A stretch of DNA of 64,000 bases from positions 186,001-250,000 of the forward strand of contig JACOST010000009.1 in the NCBI GenBank assembly GCA_016178705.1, read 5' to 3'. The notes below the pieces were generated by a model. The model did not search any database. It saw nothing but the letters and a program-made list of their open reading frames with translations, and was not told where the DNA came from. The position numbers were made by a program, and so were the translations under genes. Of this stretch, positions 54,951 through 64,000 are shown in pieces; positions within the stretch are counted from its first letter, which is position 1, and every line of letters starts with the position of its first letter. This DNA comes from Deltaproteobacteria bacterium. Its GTDB lineage: Bacteria; Desulfobacterota; Binatia; HRBIN30; JACQVA1.

Positions 54951-56939
54951 TCACGGTGCGCGAATGACAAACGCGCTGGCGACGCCCGGATTCCCGAGCT
55001 GATCGAGCACCCGAACGGTCAGCAATGTATCCCCACTCGGAAAGGCCAGCTCACTACCGATCACCGCGCAAAACTGAACCTTGCTCATGCTGTTGACAAA
55101 AAAGAACGAGCCAGCGGACCCCGTGCAGGCCTCGCTTGGCGCCGTGCGCGCACTGAATCGGCAGCCCAAGTCATTGAGAGCATCCGAGATCGGCTGTGTG
55201 ACATCGAAGCTCGGCGGACTGACCGCCGGCACTCCACCGATCTTTGGTTGGGCCGCATCGCACACCGCAGCGCTGGGATTCGCGCCCAGCGACCGCGACG
55301 ACTCAATCTGGAAGGCCGGTCGCGCCGCCGGATCGTTCGGATCGTAGTCGAATACCGAGGTGGCCGGGCTCGATCCACTCGGGCCCTTCTTCGCTTCCAC
55401 GATGAGGAAGAACCCGCGGCTGAGAACAACCGGATAGACGGGGTGTCCGCTGGTGTCCGTACCGACCGGCGTGCGTGGCACGCCGGACAGCGAGGCGACG
55501 CCGGCGTACGAGACGTCGGCGCCGATTGGGATCGGCGTCAGCGTGCGCGTGGGTGTCACAGTGGCCGTCCGCGTCGGCGTTACGCTCCGCGTTGTCGTCG
55601 GCGTCCTGGTCGCGGACGGAGTTAGGGTGACCGTCACCGTTGGTGTGATGGTTCGCGTCGGCGTCAACGTCTGCGTGATCGTTGGCGTCATCGTGATGGT
55701 TGCCGTCAACGACGCTGTCGCGGTTCGCGTCACGGTCGCGCTGCTTGTGGGTGACGGCGTCAATGTAGCCGTTACAGTTCGCGTCAGTGTCACCGTAGCC
55801 GTCTGGGTCTGCGACGGCGTTGGGCTCGGGGAGATCGAGGGCGTAACCGTTACGCTGGGGGTGCGTGTCGCCGTGTTCGTTGGCGTCTCGGTTCGTGTGC
55901 TGGTGCTGCTGGCGGTGGGAGTAAGCGTGACCGTCGGGGTCACCGTGGGCGTAAGCGACGGGCTGATCGTACCCGTCATGGTGCGTGTGAGTGTCGCGGA
56001 TAGTGATGGCGTCGGGGAGTTGGTAGCGGTTCGCGTAACGGTCGCCGTGCGCGTCGCCGAGTAAGTGGGGGTTGGGCTTGGTGTCACCGTCGCCGTAGTC
56101 GATCCTGTCAACGTCGCGGTCCTGGTGGCGGTCGGCGACCAGGTTGCGGAGCGACTCGCGGTCACGGTCGCCGTGCTCGAGGGAGTCCGCGTCGCGCTGC
56201 TCGTCGGGGATAGACTCGGCGTTGGTGACTGACTCCGGGTACGCGTCGGCACCGGCGTGTCGGGGGCGGTCGAGGTGGGAGTTGGCGAAGGCGTAAACGT
56301 CAAGATGCGCGTCTTTGTTGGCGTTGATGTAAAGGTCGGCGAACTCGTCCTGGTGAATGTCCGCGTCGGTGTTTCCGTGATGATCGTTCCGGTCCGCGTC
56401 GCACTCGCCGTGGTCGCCGTCGTCGATGGCGTCTCCGTGGCAGTGGTGGTGACGGTCGGTGACGCAGACGGACTCGGTGTCGCCGTCGCCGAATGGGTCC
56501 GTATTGGAGTCGGCGTCAACGACGGCGTCTCGGTCTCGCTCGGCACCACCCTCGTCGGCGTGCGGGGCGACGGCGACGCGAGCGGTTCCGTCGCCGTCGG
56601 TGTCACCGATTCACTCGGCGAGGGCTGAGGACTTGCCGAAGGAGTTGATGTCACGCTCGCTGAGGGCGTCGGCGAGAGCGTCGGCGGTGCTTGCAGTTGT
56701 GCGGCGATCACATCCGCTGCCGAGAGCGCGCCGTCATGATTGGCATCGAGTTGCGGGCACAGGGCGCCCTCACCGAACAGCCCGTTCACCACCGCCGTCA
56801 CCAGCGCCGGACCGCTGGTTGGACACGAGTCGATCCCCCTGGCAACATCCGCCGAGACCAGCACCAACACTATGGCCGCTGCGACGACTCGGACGGCGAC
56901 GCTTCGCCCCGATCCCACACGACCTTCTCGCTGTTCCAA
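54951..56939 (-). CDS. Secreted Thr/Pro-repeat protein with dockerin-like motif and conserved C-terminal domain
   Basis: A 662-residue exported protein with a signal peptide (VAVRVVAAAIVLVLVSADVARG). A calcium-binding dockerin-like loop follows: CPQLDANHDGALSAADVIAA. Residues 90-465 are low-complexity repeats of Thr, Ser and Pro (units such as TPTRT, SPTPS, TATVT), probably an extended and perhaps glycosylated stalk. Residues 470-662 form a folded domain (SRGFFLIVEAKKGPSG, RPAFQIESSRSLGANPSAAVCDA, PPSFDVTQPISDALNDLGCRF, VQFCAVIGSELAFPSGDTLLTVRVLDQLGNPG). The same domain closes the protein at 62843, so the two are paralogues. Surface or adhesin function is inferred. It is 29 bp from the receiver gene's stop. 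Confidence 0.82.
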   Translation of the reverse strand: MEQREGRVGSGRSVAVRVVAAAIVLVLVSADVARGIDSCPTSGPALVTAVVNGLFGEGALCPQLDANHDGALSAADVIAAQLQAPPTLSPTPSASVTSTPSASPQPSPSESVTPTATEPLASPSPRTPTRVVPSETETPSLTPTPIRTHSATATPSPSASPTVTTTATETPSTTATTASATRTGTIITETPTRTFTRTSSPTFTSTPTKTRILTFTPSPTPTSTAPDTPVPTRTRSQSPTPSLSPTSSATRTPSSTATVTASRSATWSPTATRTATLTGSTTATVTPSPTPTYSATRTATVTRTATNSPTPSLSATLTRTMTGTISPSLTPTVTPTVTLTPTASSTSTRTETPTNTATRTPSVTVTPSISPSPTPSQTQTATVTLTRTVTATLTPSPTSSATVTRTATASLTATITMTPTITQTLTPTRTITPTVTVTLTPSATRTPTTTRSVTPTRTATVTPTRTLTPIPIGADVSYAGVASLSGVPRTPVGTDTSGHPVYPVVLSRGFFLIVEAKKGPSGSSPATSVFDYDPNDPAARPAFQIESSRSLGANPSAAVCDAAQPKIGGVPAVSPPSFDVTQPISDALNDLGCRFSARTAPSEACTGSAGSFFFVNSMSKVQFCAVIGSELAFPSGDTLLTVRVLDQLGNPGVASAFVIRAP

Positions 56940-56968: not shown

Positions 56969-57373
56969 TCAGTTACCTGCGGGCTTCGCCCGACCCTCGG
57001 CCAATAGCCGCTCCAACTTCACGCGTACCAGACTCGGATCGACAATTGGCTTGGCCAGATAGTCATCACAGCCTGCTGACAGAGCCTTCTGCTCGTCGCC
57101 CGCCATCGCCTGCGCTGTCAGCGCAATGATGGGGATACCTCGGCCCCGATCCGACGCGCGAATCCGCCGCGTAGCCTCCCAACCATCCATAACCGGCATC
57201 TTCAAATCCATGAAAATCAGGTCCGGAGGAGGGCTTGCCTCGACGATCTGTAGTGCCTCCTGGCCGTTGCTTGCCTCGACAATATCGAATTCGCCGATCC
57301 GCTTAAGACGGTAGACGAGAATCCGTCTATTATCGAGATTGTCCTCAACCACCAGAATCCGCTTGAGCGTCAT
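56969..57373 (-). CDS. Stand-alone receiver (CheY-like) response regulator
   Basis: A 134-residue receiver domain with no output domain: RILVVEDNLDNRRIL (acidic pocket), phospho-Asp in LIFMDLKMPVMDGWEATRRIR, PIIALTAQAMAGDE (Thr) and CDDYLAKPI (Lys). Such proteins usually relay phosphate from hybrid kinases. The ATG at 57373 is preferred because MTLKRILVVEDN starts the fold; 14 residues before it are not conserved. It lies between the Thr/Pro-repeat gene and the tandem secreted-protein genes, but behind a terminator, so its promoter may be separate. No kinase is adjacent. Confidence 0.92.
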   Translation of the reverse strand: MTLKRILVVEDNLDNRRILVYRLKRIGEFDIVEASNGQEALQIVEASPPPDLIFMDLKMPVMDGWEATRRIRASDRGRGIPIIALTAQAMAGDEQKALSAGCDDYLAKPIVDPSLVRVKLERLLAEGRAKPAGN

Positions 57374-57433: not shown

Positions 57434-57473
57434 AAAAGAAAAGGGCCGAGAACGCGATCACGTCCCCGGCCCT
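57434..57473 (-). terminator. Rho-independent terminator after the tandem secreted-protein genes
   Basis: On the minus strand AGGGCCG (57473-57467) pairs with CGGCCCT (57448-57442) and is followed by TTTTCTTTT. It is 32 bp downstream of the stop of the last paralogue and closes that transcription unit. Confidence 0.85.
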
Positions 57474-57504: not shown

Positions 57505-58758
57505 CTACGGCGCCGGAATTGAAATCGTATCGCCGAATCCAGCTCCCCGGCTACCGTCAAAGTGCAGATTCGCCGCTGTCGAGAACGACCCGCGCGCACC
57601 GCTGTGCGTCTCCTCGGAAATGCCGAGCAATCCGTGCCCAGCTTCGTTGGTCGGCACGCCACGGATACGCGTTTGACCCGTAATCGTCCCTTGAACGCCA
57701 ACGCTAAAAATCGATGTCGCGTCGCCCGGATCGACCCCCGGAACGCTATCGATGTCGGACAACCGCGTCGTTTCGAAGCACTGCACGTGCCGATTCGACG
57801 AGAAGCGCTGTTCGAATTCGTTGATAATCAGCAACTGCGCCACCGTGATACCTGGCGGCCCGATCTGGGTTTCGGGGGCCTCTGTGCACGGCACCAGCGT
57901 CAACGTCGTTCCAACCGAGTCATTGTCACCGAATGGATCAGCCCCATCGAAGAAGTGATCCAGAATCAACGTTCCCGGGCACGACGCGTGAGTCGCGGTG
58001 GTGCAGTTGCCACCGTTCGTCCCCAGACAGAGCACCCCAGTGTCGATCGGTCCCGATGATGCCCCGACCACACTTTGGATCCCGATCGCGCTGTACTCGC
58101 GTACATCGACGCTGCCACCATTCCCCGTCGTTGACGCATAGATTCGCGCCGAACCGGTAAAGTCGTTGACTCCGGTTAGCGCCTGCGGCGTGGAGCCGGC
58201 CGTTACGGTGTCAACCTCGATGCACTTCAACTCGCCGATAAAGGGTTGGCGTGGGACGCCTTTGATCACCCCTTCCTGAGGATCGCCACAGGGGTCGCCG
58301 GGTCGGTTGCACGGCAGAGTTGTCGTATTCTGGCTTGCTACGAAGCCGATTGGCTGGCCAGGGCTCGCACCGATTTCAAAGTTGTCAGCGGTCCAACTGG
58401 TCACGCACCGCTGGCCACTCGCCCGGCAATTGAGGGCGGGATCCGAGCTATTCGGATCGCAGGCATCCGGATTGGCGTTCCCGCACGGTCCGCCGCAACA
58501 GCTATTCGCTCCCACCCAAAAGCAAAGTAGGTTGGCGATATCCGAACTGGTATTTTGAATCTGGATCACGGTATCGACACTCACCCCGCCGGTCAGTGTC
58601 CCAGCCGTGTCTACGAGTACCTTTGGAAACACCAGAACCGCAGCCCCTTGATCCGATGCGACGATCTGACCTCGCGCGCCGCTGCTCATCAGGAGAACGG
58701 CCACCGCACCCAACCAAGCAAGGGCGGCTCGTGAGTGGTCCGGCCTACGTGTACGCAT
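57505..58758 (-). CDS. Secreted Cys-rich protein, tandem paralogue 4
   Basis: A 417-residue exported protein. The signal peptide (ALAWLGAVAVLLMSSGARG) is followed by the family start AAVLVFPKVLVDTAGT, VDTVIQIQNTS, and a cysteine-rich insert (CFWVGANSCCGGPCGNANPDACDPNSSDPALNC). Further shared blocks are QPFIGELKCIEVD, REYSAIGI, LILDHFFDGADPFGDNDSVGTTLTLVPC and VAQLLIINEFEQRFSSNRHVQCFETTRLSDID. The ATG at 58758 has AAAGGAGA eight bases upstream. It belongs to a four-gene tandem family with the next three genes. I know no function; an outer-surface or matrix role is inferred from secretion. A terminator follows. Confidence 0.8.
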   Translation of the reverse strand: MRTRRPDHSRAALAWLGAVAVLLMSSGARGQIVASDQGAAVLVFPKVLVDTAGTLTGGVSVDTVIQIQNTSSDIANLLCFWVGANSCCGGPCGNANPDACDPNSSDPALNCRASGQRCVTSWTADNFEIGASPGQPIGFVASQNTTTLPCNRPGDPCGDPQEGVIKGVPRQPFIGELKCIEVDTVTAGSTPQALTGVNDFTGSARIYASTTGNGGSVDVREYSAIGIQSVVGASSGPIDTGVLCLGTNGGNCTTATHASCPGTLILDHFFDGADPFGDNDSVGTTLTLVPCTEAPETQIGPPGITVAQLLIINEFEQRFSSNRHVQCFETTRLSDIDSVPGVDPGDATSIFSVGVQGTITGQTRIRGVPTNEAGHGLLGISEETHSGARGSFSTAANLHFDGSRGAGFGDTISIPAP

Positions 58759-58830
58759 TGCCCGTCTCCTTTCATCCATCAAACGATTACCCGCTGCGTG
58801 CAATCGCTCCATGATTTCCACCTCGTCGCC

Positions 58831-59907
58831 CTATTCCCCGGAAATCCGAATCGACGCAGGCGAGCCAGCCGGGCCCGTGGCTGGCAGATTCGAAGCCTTG
58901 TCGGCACCCAACTGCGACATGTTTATCGAGGACGTAGCGCTGTTGCTGTTGCTATCGGTCACCACGCTGTCGAACACGCCCAGCAGACCAACCTGAGAGT
59001 TTGGCGTCAAGATAGCCGTGTAGAACTGCGTCGGCGCTCCGCTGAAGTACGACCCAAACACTGAGCCACTACCGCCCAGCGCGAGTTCGCGCCAGCATGT
59101 GACATTCAGTGCACCGTCGAACGACAATTGATTCTCGAATTCGTCGATGCGATTGACGCTCACCGACACGCTGGCCGGCACGAGGTTCTCGAAATCCGCC
59201 GAGCACGGAATCAACGTCATGAAGCTGCGCGATACAGATCCCGATCCTAAGACAGGGTCCACATCGAGATCGCGAACGCCGGCAAACTGCAGGGCCCTTG
59301 GGCAGCCGTTGTATTCGGCGCTGCCGTCCGCTTCATTCGCAACCGTATCGTTCAACAGAAGTAGATCATCGTCACTGCCGTTGACTGCCTTGATCGCTAG
59401 TCCGTTGTACTTCGAGACGTCGCCCGACTGCGCATTCTTGAGCGTAGCGTCGCCGATCAGGGAGTTTCCTGCACTCGGTCCGCTGCTGTCGACCTGAACA
59501 CAGAGAAGCTCGCCTTGGAAGCCGGCCGTAGCGGGAGGAACCGCACCCGGGTCAAGGCCGTCGTTGTCATCGGTGAAGTCAACCGGGCGCCCAGCACTCA
59601 CCTGCCAGTGTGTCGGCTGCAGGCGTGTGAGCCAGATATTGAAATCCGTTTCCTGCCAACGCGGCTGCAGCGTGTTCGGATCCCGCGATCCGTCGACGTA
59701 GAAGCAGTGGGCGTGGGCCGTCATCGTCGAGATATTGCTGATCTGAATGATCGTGTCGCGCGTTCCATCCGCTATGACCTTGGGAAAGATCAAGATAGAA
59801 CCGGGCCGCTCCGTCGACACGTCTGCGCGCGCCGCGACGGCAGCCGTAAGCGCGAGGGCGCACGCCACCAGTGTCGAGCCAACGCGCAGGCTGTTCATCG
59901 TCCTCAT
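58831..59907 (-). CDS. Secreted protein, tandem paralogue 3
   Basis: A 358-residue exported protein with signal peptide (LRVGSTLVACALALTAAVAARA). Family blocks: SILIFPKVIADGTRDTIIQISNIS, HCFYVDGSRD, DFNIWLTRLQPTHWQVSAGRP, GFQGELLCVQVDSSGPSAGNSLIGDATL, YNGLAIKAVNG, EYNGCPRALQFAG, FMTLIPCSADFENLVPASVSV and IDEFENQLSFDGALNVTCW. It lacks the cysteine-rich insertion of its neighbours. AAAGGAGGAAGGCC precedes the ATG at 59907. Shares order and spacing with the other three members, so it arose by tandem duplication. Function unknown. Confidence 0.8.
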   Translation of the reverse strand: MRTMNSLRVGSTLVACALALTAAVAARADVSTERPGSILIFPKVIADGTRDTIIQISNISTMTAHAHCFYVDGSRDPNTLQPRWQETDFNIWLTRLQPTHWQVSAGRPVDFTDDNDGLDPGAVPPATAGFQGELLCVQVDSSGPSAGNSLIGDATLKNAQSGDVSKYNGLAIKAVNGSDDDLLLLNDTVANEADGSAEYNGCPRALQFAGVRDLDVDPVLGSGSVSRSFMTLIPCSADFENLVPASVSVSVNRIDEFENQLSFDGALNVTCWRELALGGSGSVFGSYFSGAPTQFYTAILTPNSQVGLLGVFDSVVTDSNSNSATSSINMSQLGADKASNLPATGPAGSPASIRISGE

Positions 59908-59968
59908 GGCCTTCCTCCTTTTGTACGCATACCCGTGGCCTGTTCGCTCATCCGCGGCCCCATCGCCG

Positions 59969-61216
59969 TTACGGAATCGTAATGGTATCGCCCGCCGTAC
60001 GTTCACCGTCTTGGTGTACGTTGTACGCCGCGCTGCCTACGACACCGTTCTCAGGTTCGGTCATCGTCAGGCGGGCGGCACCGAGCAGTCCCGATCCAAT
60101 CCCACGGACTCGCGTTTGGCCACCGACCGTACCCGACACCGCTGCATTCCAAATCGAATGTTCGGGTTGGGTAGTATCGATCAACGACAGCTGGCTCTTG
60201 AAGAAGCAGTCGATGCGCCGACTGGTCGAAAACCGTTGCTCAAACTCGTTGTAGACCAGGAATTGCGCCGTTGATACGCCGACGGTCCGGTCAGCTCCGG
60301 TCAGATCCTCCGAACAGGGAACCAGCGCCAACTCCGTCGTCGAGCTTTCCTCAAGCAGGATCGTAGTACCATGGGGCGGTGGGCTGGTAATCGGATTGAT
60401 CGCGCCATCGAACAGGTGATTCACCACCAACGTCTGCGGGCAGGCGTTGTACTCATTGCCGATGTCGAGGCTGGTGTCGCCGTTGTTGTCGCCGGTAGAA
60501 GTTAGGCCGACGGCATTGTAGGTCCCGACGTCAATGGTGTCATCTTCCTGAATCGTTTCGATGGTGGCTTCGCCCTTCAAGTCGTTGGTGCTCGGGGCGC
60601 CGTCCTCCGCTGGCGGTGCATCGGTATCGCGATCGATCTCGACGCACTTCAGTTCACCCATGAACGGATCTTCCGGTGCGGGAGGGATCAGGGTTCCAGC
60701 ATTCGTCTGGTTTACATCGCAGCTGTCGCCGCCGCGGCAATCGCTCGCGTCCTTGCATGGCTTCGGAAACTGTGCGGTCGAACTGCTGCAAATCTTGCTC
60801 GGGCCGTGCAACGGGAGAGAGGAACCGGAGAGGCCTTCCGATGCCCGCCAACCGAGGGGCTGTTGAGCGGTCAATACAATCAGGAAGTCGGTGACGGTCC
60901 AGCCCGGCACACACGAGCCAACCGAATTCGCTGCGCCCAGGCAAGCCGAGGACAAGGTGCAGGGTTCGCCGGTATTGGTGCAATGACTGTTGCCGTTCAC
61001 ATAGAAACATTTGGCAGTCACGGCGTTGTCCGGGTCCATATTACTCAAGCGGACGACGGTGTCGCGGCCGTTTAGTGTATCGACATCAATGCGCGGAAAC
61101 ACCACCCCAGCCGCCGGTCGGTCGGACCGGGACAGGGCCTTAGCGCCTGACGCAAGGGCCAGCACTCCCACCATAGCAACCGCCACCGCGGCGCCGATTC
61201 GAGTTCTCGTCAGCAT
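59969..61216 (-). CDS. Secreted Cys-rich protein, tandem paralogue 2
   Basis: A 415-residue exported protein (signal peptide TRIGAAVAVAMVGVLALASGAKA). Family blocks: AAGVVFPRIDVDTLNGRDTVVRLSNMD, KCFYVNGNSHCTNTGEPCTLSSACLG, DFLIVLTAQQPLGWRASEGL, a cysteine-rich loop (KPCKDASDCRGGDSCDV), FMGELKCVEIDRDTDAPP, TYNAVGL, EYNACPQTLVVNHLFDGAINP, LALVPCSEDL and TAQFLVYNEFEQRFSTSRRIDCFF. The ATG at 61216 follows AAAGGAGATCGGCA. The short cysteine pairs (CxxxSxCxxGDxC) resemble those in other secreted soil-bacterial proteins. Function unknown. Confidence 0.8.
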   Translation of the reverse strand: MLTRTRIGAAVAVAMVGVLALASGAKALSRSDRPAAGVVFPRIDVDTLNGRDTVVRLSNMDPDNAVTAKCFYVNGNSHCTNTGEPCTLSSACLGAANSVGSCVPGWTVTDFLIVLTAQQPLGWRASEGLSGSSLPLHGPSKICSSSTAQFPKPCKDASDCRGGDSCDVNQTNAGTLIPPAPEDPFMGELKCVEIDRDTDAPPAEDGAPSTNDLKGEATIETIQEDDTIDVGTYNAVGLTSTGDNNGDTSLDIGNEYNACPQTLVVNHLFDGAINPITSPPPHGTTILLEESSTTELALVPCSEDLTGADRTVGVSTAQFLVYNEFEQRFSTSRRIDCFFKSQLSLIDTTQPEHSIWNAAVSGTVGGQTRVRGIGSGLLGAARLTMTEPENGVVGSAAYNVHQDGERTAGDTITIP

Positions 61217-61272
61217 TGCCGATCTCCTTTCTCTGCAGGACCCGTGTCTCATGGTTGCCACAATCAGGCCCG

Positions 61273-62595
61273 TCACGGGGTCGCCAGGGTGTTTATGGTA
61301 TCGGTGGCGCACACCTGGCCAGGATCGCAGTCGCCATCGGTGATGCAGTTCACGTCGGTTAGGCCGACATTCGGAACCAGGCAACGGCCGCGATTGCCGG
61401 CTGAGAAGTGCAGATTGATCGCGTCGACCCCGATGCGCGTAGTATTGATGGAATTGGCGTTGTGGAACTCTTCCGCCACCGCCAAGATGCCCGAGGTCGC
61501 GCGGCAGGTATTGAACTCGCCCCCGTTACCGCCGCAATCCGCATCGTCGGTGCAAACGATCGTGGTGTTAGTTGTACAGCGTAAGCCGTTCGCAGGTCGG
61601 ACGGTCGTCTTCGCAAACGAGCTGCCCAGCGTGCCAACGGTGAAGTTGGTGTTGATCCGTCCAAGCGTGTTGTTGTACCAGCAGGTGAAGGTGACCGAGG
61701 CGGAACGGCTGCCGCCGAAGTGATTTTCGAACTCGTCGAAGATCGCGAACTGGGCCGCGACTGTCGTCGGTCTGGCGTTCTCGATATCAATGGTACACGG
61801 CACCAGTGTGATCTCCGTCTTTACCGTCGATGGCGCACCCGCAACAAGATCGGTGGCGCCGTCGGCGTAATGAGTGAGCGTCAGCGATTCAGGACAGGCA
61901 TTGTACTCCGAGCCATCCATGACGATCGCGCCACTGGTAACCGGATCGAGAGAGACGATTCCGATCGCATTGTATTGGCTGATCTGAGTCTGTCCGAGGG
62001 TTTCGATCATCGCCTCACCGTGGATGGCGTCGGCTCCCAACGGATTGTCGCTTGCACCGTCGGTCGTGTAGCAAACCAACTGTCCGCGGAAGCCAGCGGC
62101 CGTGGGCGAGATTGCCGAGGTGATATCGTCCGTGCTGCCGGGGCACTTCTGGCTGAGGCCATCCGCCTGGCATTCACCCGGGCTGAACGTGTCCGACGGA
62201 TCGTTCGGCTGGCGACCGGTTGAAGCGCGCCACACGAACGGCTGTTGGCGCGTCAGGCTAAATTCGAAGTCCGAAAGACCCCAAGTCACGCCCTGGATCG
62301 CGTCGCAGGCCTGGCCGGCCGGGCAGTCCGCGTTTACCGAGCAGATGTTTCCGTTGACGCTGCAGCGACCACTGCCGTTGATGTACTCGCAGTGGATCGT
62401 CTGCACCATCGAGGTGCTGTTCGTAATCTGAATGAGGGTGTCGCGCGTCCCATCCGCGATTACCTTCGGAAAGAACAGCACCGACGCCAGTTGGTCGGTG
62501 GTGGCGTCGGCTTGGGCGCTGCCCCACCATAGCCCCAGCAGTGACAGCACGGTTCCCAGGCCGGTCAGCCAAGGATTTCGCTTCAGCACACGCAT
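61273..62595 (-). CDS. Secreted Cys-rich protein, tandem paralogue 1
   Basis: A 440-residue exported protein (signal peptide GLGTVLSLLGLWWGSAQA). Family blocks: LASVLFFPKVIADGTRDTLIQITN, HCEYINGSGRC, WGLSDFEFSLTRQQPFVWRAS, AAGFRGQLVCYTTDGAS, GEAMIETLGQ, YNAIGIV, EYNACPESLTLTHYADGATD, EITLVPCTIDIENARPTTVAAQFAIFDEFENHF. It has extra cysteine-rich inserts (CSVNADCPAGQACD; CTDDADCGGNGGEFNTC; CITDGDCDPGQVC). AAAAGGAGGCGTGCG precedes the ATG at 62595. It is the first gene after the promoter at 62673-62701. Function unknown. Confidence 0.82.
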   Translation of the reverse strand: MRVLKRNPWLTGLGTVLSLLGLWWGSAQADATTDQLASVLFFPKVIADGTRDTLIQITNSTSMVQTIHCEYINGSGRCSVNGNICSVNADCPAGQACDAIQGVTWGLSDFEFSLTRQQPFVWRASTGRQPNDPSDTFSPGECQADGLSQKCPGSTDDITSAISPTAAGFRGQLVCYTTDGASDNPLGADAIHGEAMIETLGQTQISQYNAIGIVSLDPVTSGAIVMDGSEYNACPESLTLTHYADGATDLVAGAPSTVKTEITLVPCTIDIENARPTTVAAQFAIFDEFENHFGGSRSASVTFTCWYNNTLGRINTNFTVGTLGSSFAKTTVRPANGLRCTTNTTIVCTDDADCGGNGGEFNTCRATSGILAVAEEFHNANSINTTRIGVDAINLHFSAGNRGRCLVPNVGLTDVNCITDGDCDPGQVCATDTINTLATP

Positions 62596-62842: not shown

Positions 62843-64000
62843 TCATGGGCCCGGGGTTGGCGACGGGAGCACGCGGACGATGATCTGAGCGGTCGGCCCA
62901 AAGTTCGGGCTCGCGCCCCCCGGCCCCGCCGGAGGCGGATCGTCGCGCAACTGCACCGTGAGCAATGTGTCGCCGACCGGGAAGCGCTGTAGCGTATCGA
63001 CGGCATCGCAGAACTGCGCCGTGGAAAGTGGATTGACGATGGAAGGGTTGCCGAATGGATCGCGCGTGCACGCGGTGCTCGGGACTTGCGTGGCGAATCG
63101 GCATGCGAACACTTTCAGCGCGTTCGTGATCGCGGCATCGCCATCGGTGAACGCCGGGGTCGGAATCGCCGGGATGATGCCGTTGATTACGCACGACGCC
63201 GTGCTGCCGGGGCCAAGTTTGTTGTTCGATTGAATCTGCAAATCGGGCCGATCGTAAGGCGACGTTGCGCTCTGTGCGACCAACGAGGTTCCGACGGACG
63301 GACTGCCGGGTTTCGGGAACCCTTCCACCACGATGATCCCGGCGCGCTCGTCGCGGACCGTGAACACACGCACGTTGCCGACGAACTCCGGTGTGGCCGT
63401 TGGTGTCCCGCTGCAGCAGGCGGCTTCTTGGCAGCCAAGCGCGCAACCATCGGGGCGGTAGATACCAAAAAATCCGATGCGCGGGCCCGCCTGTGGCGGC
63501 GTCGGCGTGCGCGTCGGCGTAACCGTGCGTGTCGGGGTCGTGGTGCGCGTCCCGGTTGCGCTCGGTGTCGAGGACGGCGTGCGGGTGAATGTTTGCGTTC
63601 GCGTCGCGGTCGGCACCAGCGTGAGCGTCGCTGTCACTGTCTCGGTTGTCGTCTTCGTCGGGCTCGCGGTCCACGTGATTGTGGCGCTCTGCGTCGGGGT
63701 ACGCGTATCCTTCGATGTGCGTGTCGGAGTGGTGGTAACGGTTGCCGTCGGAACCGGCGTGTCGGTGGCGGTGCGGGTACCGCTGCGCGTCGCGGTCTGA
63801 GTGCGCGTGCGAGTTTCCGTCAATGTTGGGAACGGCGTAAACGTTTCGGTCGTCGTGCGCGTTGCGGTGCGCGTGAGCGTCGGCGACGGTGGTAATGTTT
63901 GCGTGACCGTCCGCGTCGACGTGCGCGTCACGGTCGCGCTGGCCGAAGCGGTGGCGCTGCCTGTTGCGGATGGCGTCGCGGTATTTGTCACGGTCTTCGT
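62843..64000 (-). CDS. Thr/Pro-repeat protein with shared C-terminal domain (cut by window edge)
   Basis: The 3' 385 codons of a longer gene whose start lies beyond the right edge. In-window residues 1-175 are Thr/Ser/Pro/Arg repeats (TATRT, TPTRT-type units) like the stalk of the protein at 54951. The rest is a folded domain (RIGFFGIYRPDGCALGCQEAACCSG, ERAGIIVVEGFPKPGSPSVGTS, RPDLQIQSNNKLGPGSTASCVI, ITNALKVFACRFATQVPSTACT, AQFCDAVDTLQRFPVGDTLLTVQL). It aligns block by block with the other protein's C-terminus. Signal peptide and full length are not visible. Exported surface function is inferred. Confidence 0.8.
   Translation of the reverse strand, partial: TKTVTNTATPSATGSATASASATVTRTSTRTVTQTLPPSPTLTRTATRTTTETFTPFPTLTETRTRTQTATRSGTRTATDTPVPTATVTTTPTRTSKDTRTPTQSATITWTASPTKTTTETVTATLTLVPTATRTQTFTRTPSSTPSATGTRTTTPTRTVTPTRTPTPPQAGPRIGFFGIYRPDGCALGCQEAACCSGTPTATPEFVGNVRVFTVRDERAGIIVVEGFPKPGSPSVGTSLVAQSATSPYDRPDLQIQSNNKLGPGSTASCVINGIIPAIPTPAFTDGDAAITNALKVFACRFATQVPSTACTRDPFGNPSIVNPLSTAQFCDAVDTLQRFPVGDTLLTVQLRDDPPPAGPGGASPNFGPTAQIIVRVLPSPTPGP

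Follow-up and report, generated by a model that had tools for sequence, protein, structure and literature searches.

In this work we analysed a 64,000-nucleotide window from a Deltaproteobacteria bacterium (GCA_016178705.1, contig JACOST010000009.1, positions 186,001 to 250,000) and, within it, four consecutive minus-strand genes spanning 57505-62595, which we term A, B, C and D in the order of their transcription; the letters of these and of all other arrays were assigned in the present analysis. We propose, with moderate confidence, that A-D are exported dyads of the Anabaena sensory rhodopsin transducer (ASRT) fold and ancient, non-interchangeable subunits of an extracellular glycan-binding surface assembly, tethered via the products of two flanking genes, UP and DN. 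The fold and the general idea of exported dyads of the ASRAH superfamily (ASRT and its relative TM1070 of Thermotoga; PF07100) are known already. What is new is an order-wide, multi-operon version of about 20 members with cysteine inserts, a seven-gene cluster and links to dockerin, cohesin and sugar-nucleotide genes.

Predicted structures carry the first part of this proposal, and that both halves of the proteins have a TM1070/ASRT-type fold is well supported by them. In a model of C built with 63 relatives (pLDDT 85.5, pTM 0.85), domain 1 aligned to Thermotoga TM1070 (1nc7) in VIA-align with Z 12.3 and a root-mean-square deviation of 1.9 over 106 of the 116 residues, the next row having Z 6.1. 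The model of domain 2 of B also matched 1nc7 best (Z 11.3, 113 of the 116 residues), followed by four ASRT entries (Z 8.8-9.2) and then by a row at 6.8. The TM1070 topology was thus found in both halves by structural alignment of predicted models, and not by inspection of the strand order itself. The original prediction knew no described family for these proteins; this holds at the level of sequence, where no library family scored above its cut-off, but not at the level of the fold, which is a known one in both halves. An accidental likeness between common beta-sandwiches, uninformative on function, is an unlikely explanation of the TM1070 match. Sequence support is absent and many beta-sandwiches match weakly, but Z values of 11-12 are well above those of the unrelated rows, nearly the whole target is aligned, and each half gave the match on its own, with a different window protein as the source.

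The ASRAH superfamily has this fold and was predicted by De Souza, Iyer and Aravind to bind small molecules, most likely sugars; two-domain secreted versions exist in actinobacteria, and the superfamily has as hallmarks a nearly absolute Asn that ends strand 2 and a Trp that starts strand 1 (PMC2739507). In the 64-member alignment of the family, with equivalence judged by the strands of the C model and not by superposed coordinates, the Asn is kept in both halves, as N58 in 62/64 members and as residue 255, which is Asn in 53 and Asp in 11 of them. The Trp is not clearly present: residue 41 of domain 1, its possible counterpart, is aromatic in 64/64 and Trp in 15/64, and no such column was seen in domain 2.

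The array is ancient and syntenic, not young. In a tree built with 65 family members of four genomes (the window genome G000, G001, G002 and G007), each window gene groups with the orthologue at the same place in the corresponding array of G001, G007 and G002. The clades of A (support 99/97) and B (98/96) include all four genomes and those of C (100/98) and D (100/96) three, the D gene of G002 joining weakly at forks of 85/59 and 95/30. The C-type gene of G002 (L092:5059-6199) is split over two frames, by a frameshift, an assembly error or a real loss, and was left out of the tree. Group profiles applied to 34 loci revealed four array types with a fixed gene order, namely A-B-C-D in 8 loci, of which two are truncated at contig ends, E-F-G-H in 10, of which five are complete, I-J in 7, of which three have another second gene or an extra third one, and L-K in 8. 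One odd pair fell outside these types. Letters beyond A-D were given by small group profiles, some for weakly supported groups, and in L036 and L039 it is group K, not D, that gives the fourth gene its best score. Since orthologues keep their places in the tree and the order is fixed, we regard the array as old and its members as not interchangeable, and a set of this age and order probably belongs to a cell-surface assembly and is not the product of a recent gene duplication. By eye, outer neighbours of other array types also seem kept, with an aminotransferase-like gene before E-F-G-H (L069, L087, L097) and transporter-like genes around I-J (L071, L084, L090, L098).

Recent tandem duplication is ruled out by the tree. 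A broader version of that idea, in which a young and expanding tandem array generates surface variation as a kin-recognition or antigenic repertoire, is largely refuted and very improbable. It would suit the tandem layout with variable cysteine-rich inserts, the weak resemblance of these inserts to the cysteine repeats of the myxobacterial TraA receptor (PMC3325183), and the faster divergence of A-D (55-59% identity between G000 and G001) than of E-H (66-79%). However, both the tree and the synteny reveal orthologues that are ancient and have kept their order, and extra H copies are limited to three E-F-G-H loci (L061, L062, L063).

The genes of the array lie close together, with intergenic gaps, in transcription order, of 56, 61 and 72 bp. 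AAAGGAG precedes each of the four starts at similar spacing, each protein begins with a stretch that looks by eye like a signal peptide, pairwise identity is 33-44%, and a hairpin with a 14-pair stem and a T-rich tail follows D. The original prediction of four tandem genes with these outer ends, encoding divergent secreted paralogues and having common ribosome binding sites and a terminator, is borne out by these observations, and A-D are probably co-transcribed, always in this order. It had also claimed a shared promoter, which was not found: a sigma-70 scan gave three sites against 1.9 expected by chance, none of them before A. The shared blocks that it described as fixed do exist but vary in sequence (NEFEQRF in B and D, DEFENHF in A, DEFENQL in C). 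Similarly, the cysteine-rich inserts attributed to all four proteins occur in A, B and D but not in C, and the CxxDxDCxxGxxC-type motif is present in A but absent from B, C and D; it occurs in 23/120 family members. Only A has a match to TIGR04201 (Myxo_Cys_RPT), at 18.2 bits and below the cut-off of 25; B, C and D have none.

Across the family, five cysteines (C68, C136, C202, C235 and C271 in the numbering of C) are invariant in 64/64 members. C itself has six cysteines, one inside the signal peptide, and those of its mature protein are exactly the five invariant ones. Because their number is odd, the alignment suggests that one of them is free or bonded between subunits. This bears on the main rival to our proposal, possible but on the doubtful side, in which the dyads have a structural role only and build a sheet, a fibre or a matrix comparable to an S-layer, with disulphides between subunits and a ligand pocket that is unused. 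The invariant cysteines, one of which could bond between subunits, the roughly 20 copies per genome, the fixed order of the paralogues and the failure of A-D to match an enzyme family in any library are all in its favour, but the cluster shows no recognisable assembly machinery, the known relatives of the fold are predicted ligand binders (PMC2739507), and one array type is flanked by sugar genes.

Searches with A-D found no Pfam, NCBIfam, PADLOC or PHROGs family above cut-off or at E 0.001, and a Pfam scan of the 64 members at E <= 10 returned scattered weak matches only, mostly cysteine-rich domains. Searches of the open-licence literature found no description of the family, and nothing for Myxo_Cys_RPT or for Binatota with dockerin. 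A profile of the four proteins, a search that the original prediction had itself suggested, found 24 matching stretches in the source genome, which correspond to 21 open reading frames at nine sites, one truncated by the end of a contig. The same profile gave 13 to 25 matches in each of the 15 sampled genomes of the order, about 20 copies per genome, and none in 43 other genomes of the class. The order is apparently HRBIN30 of Binatota; HRBIN30 is an order name within Binatota (PMC8262859). With a 64-row profile, 17 of the 148 class genomes matched, the same 15 of the order plus two distant matches, both from a single further family (G090, E 2.0e-15; G098, E 5.8e-35), that is 2/133 class genomes outside the order; phylum-wide, 2/297 genomes matched, both of the order. 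As the class search scored at most the best 13 candidates per genome and the phylum search the best 6, weak members outside the order could be missed by these counts. The suspicion that the system is lineage-specific holds at the sequence level.

The 34 loci come from a pattern-based scan of 84,980 species genomes and lie, with one exception, in records whose titles read Binatia, Deltaproteobacteria, HRbin30 or simply bacterium; they may partly come from the same genomes as G005, G006, G013 and G014 (records CADEER, BEIG, JACQEN, JAGDMS). The exception, L066 (JAJDCE010000006.1), is a 4,155-base contig labelled Patescibacteria with E- and F-type genes, and is probably misbinned since the same project also holds a member of the order.

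The conserved unit exceeds four genes and is a seven-gene cluster of UP, A-B-C-D, a response regulator and DN. UP precedes A in 9/9 loci with enough sequence, and in the window genome its dockerin, which lies outside the window, scored 27.5 bits for Dockerin_1 in the genome search and 22.5 in the protein scan (cut-off 22.9). DN was present in 8/11 loci, two of these seen only by genome search. The C-terminal domains of UP and DN are 36% identical, and this cysteine-bearing, unnamed domain, which has no Pfam hit, occurs in 15/15 genomes of the order and 0/24 others. In L064 a dyad is fused within one protein to paired EF-hands, a PT linker and the domain found in DN, and a 727-residue protein of L073 has a long PT linker and two EF-hands; in both cases the EF-hands were recognised by eye and have no Pfam hit.

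The regulator follows D in 10/11 loci, the window included, and is 72-83% identical to the window copy in the other nine, far more conserved than A-D. This conservation, and the proposal that intracellular ASRT-like proteins are sugar sensors (PMC2739507), would suit dyads that act as periplasmic sensors and signal to the adjacent regulator through an unlinked kinase. However, the cluster revealed neither a histidine kinase nor a membrane receptor, a terminator lies between D and the regulator, L040 lacks the regulator, and none was detected beside the other array types. We consider a sensory role improbable.

Our preferred reading of A-D as parts of a glycan-binding surface assembly also draws on the context of the L-K arrays. 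A sugar-type gene lies upstream in 9/9 L-K loci with an upstream gene available: a nucleotide-sugar dehydrogenase in six (L038, L042, L044, L046, L050, L096). In L094 it is a DegT-type aminotransferase, and L072 and L085 have a GHMP-type kinase. L041, L049 and L056 end before the upstream gene, and the cut gene of L072 was placed in the L-K type by its neighbours and N terminus. Farther upstream are dockerin proteins above cut-off (31.4 and 28.4 bits in L038 and L050), a cohesin protein in L046 (24.6 bits, cut-off 24.1) and one below cut-off in L050 (14.4), and MYXO-CTERM-like tails just below cut-off in L042, L044 and L046; one TIGR04201 match above cut-off was also found among the L-K array neighbours. 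Cohesin was detected in 15/15 genomes of the order at E <= 0.01, 14 of them above cut-off, by a search whose control also matched E. coli and M. acetivorans, and in 6/51 class genomes outside the order. Dockerin_1 was detected in 7/7 genomes of the order. Taken with the signal peptides, the dockerin, cohesin and MYXO-CTERM-like neighbours make a surface location of A-D plausible.

Based on these observations, we propose the following model. Each protein would consist of a signal peptide and two TM1070/ASRT (ASRAH) beta-sandwich domains, forming a dyad, whose scaffold loops take up variable cysteine-rich inserts. The proteins would be secreted and then fold with disulphides outside the cytoplasm, where the dyads most likely pack as hetero-oligomers. 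Pockets of the sandwich sheet, partly closed by the adjacent domain, may bind saccharides, either from exopolysaccharide that the cell itself makes or from its surroundings. Finally, UP, with its dockerin, long Thr/Pro linker and own domain, and DN, with an EF-hand-like start, linker and related domain, would tether or space the assembly through cohesin proteins. We infer the surface location, the cohesin-dockerin tethering and the glycan ligand from this context, and hetero-oligomerisation because the subunit sets are fixed and a dimer lines the pocket in the relatives; sugar binding by A-D is a prediction only, by analogy. A more far-reaching version, which we offer tentatively and think rather unlikely, is that the order builds a non-enzymatic cellulosome-like organelle, in which dyad hetero-oligomers (four operon types, about 12 subunit kinds) are the glycan-binding heads, docked by dockerin proteins with Thr/Pro linkers on MYXO-CTERM-like anchored cohesin scaffolds beside exopolysaccharide genes.

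Several results weigh against our proposal. Ligand contacts of TM1070 include His and Cys, and the ASRT-like signature is SHEshChhN (PMC2739507), but the ligand His and Cys of this signature are absent from the family; by ungapped count from the Asn, their positions hold Asp51 (60/64) and Gln55 (46/64). Comparison with an ASRT-like profile, a shallow one of 4 rows, gave an hhalign probability of about 0, and TM1070 and ASRT sequences score no better than shuffles against the family. PF07100 has no match in G000 and 6 other sampled genomes of the order and matches 2/58 sampled in the class. The regulator is missing from one of the 11 A-B-C-D loci (L040) and may be a mere neighbour, since the terminator separates it from D. 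DN is missing from 3/11 (L036, L039 and L040, within the available sequence). Dockerins are lacking in A-D themselves, Dockerin_1 does not match the DN proteins of the window and of L052, and the UP of L053 and the DN of L047 are below cut-off. Sugar genes flank the L-K array, not A-B-C-D, and because 21/51 class genomes outside the order also match Dockerin_1, this domain alone is not order-specific.

Other homology searches were also negative. A set of 148 genomes from across the phylum gave no match to PF07100, PF07100 is missing among the Pfam matches of the 64-member family alignment, a search for ASRT-like genes on plasmids found no match, and likeness of domain 1 to domain 2 was not detectable by sequence (hhalign E 0.27 over 4 columns). 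A PDB sequence search with the 64-member profile gave 0 matches; one ASRT-like protein as query also gave 0, while a 4-row profile of ASRT-like domains retrieved 1nc7 and ASRT. Given that all sequence homology tests failed, we claim the predicted fold alone and treat ASRAH membership as putative.

The ASRAH superfamily, and especially its secreted two-domain actinobacterial family, nevertheless remains the closest system that we found. Like its members, A-D have two domains in each exported protein, both with the predicted fold and a conserved Asn ending strand 2, and one array type also lies in a sugar-gene context. Unlike it, they lack detectable sequence similarity and the SHEshChhN signature, and they have invariant cysteines, cysteine-rich inserts and about 20 operon-borne paralogues essentially confined to one bacterial order, with a lipobox-like match in only 7/120 members. 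In another family of Binatia (G033 and G040; L077, L078), a putative lipoprotein with two PF07100 domains is a sequence-level ASRAH dyad in the same class. Myxococcus TraA-type receptors (TIGR04201, MYXO-CTERM) similarly combine cysteine-rich repeats with export, and near the L-K arrays there are MYXO-CTERM-like tails just below cut-off and the single TIGR04201 match above it, but in contrast no PA14 domain was found here, the repeats of A score below cut-off, and A-D have no sorting tail. Cellulosome-type assemblies resemble the system in the dockerins of UP and of the L-K neighbours, the long Thr/Pro linkers and the order-wide cohesin, and differ in that no enzyme was seen in the cluster, A-D are without dockerins, and the cohesin-dockerin pairing is a prediction.

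Coordinates of the features are given in Table 1. The window was also searched for RNA and tRNA genes, and none were found.

Table 1. Features of the array and its neighbours, in window coordinates.
Feature	Position	Strand	Basis
Gene A, first transcribed: signal peptide, two ASRT-fold domains, cysteine-rich inserts	61273..62595	-	ORF (open reading frame), alignment, syntenic orthologues; fold inferred from relatives C and B
Gene B: architecture as A	59969..61216	-	ORF, alignment, tree; domain 2 modelled alone
Gene C: architecture as A, without cysteine-rich insert	58831..59907	-	ORF, alignment, tree, full-length model
Gene D: architecture as A	57505..58758	-	ORF, alignment, tree
Domain 1 of C (residues 34-174), predicted TM1070/ASRT-type beta-sandwich	59386..59808	-	VIA-align vs 1nc7
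Domain 2 of B, predicted TM1070/ASRT-type beta-sandwich	59972..60490	-	Model pLDDT 90.6, predicted alone
Cysteine-rich insert in A resembling Myxo_Cys_RPT	62299..62343	-	TIGR04201 18.2 bits, below cut-off 25
Second cysteine-rich insert in A, DUF7107-like, weak	61303..61362	-	PF23416 12.4 bits, below cut-off 24.6
Intrinsic-terminator-like hairpin 3' of D	57442..57473	-	
Single receiver-domain response regulator directly downstream of D	56969..57373	-	PF00072 90.6 bits
DN: EF-hand-like stretch (by eye), Thr/Pro/Ser linker, C-terminal domain (54954-55526); start codon uncertain	54951..56939	-	No Pfam hit
UP: dockerin, Thr/Pro/Ser linker, C-terminal domain (62846-63484) paralogous to that of DN; 5' part beyond window	62843..64000	-	

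If our proposal is correct, a fold known mainly from small intracellular sensors would have become a large, order-defining, exported multi-subunit set in bacteria that have not been grown, and the idea that ASRAH proteins bind sugars would become testable on four exported proteins. About 20 anonymous genes per genome would also gain a predicted fold, a subunit set and neighbours.

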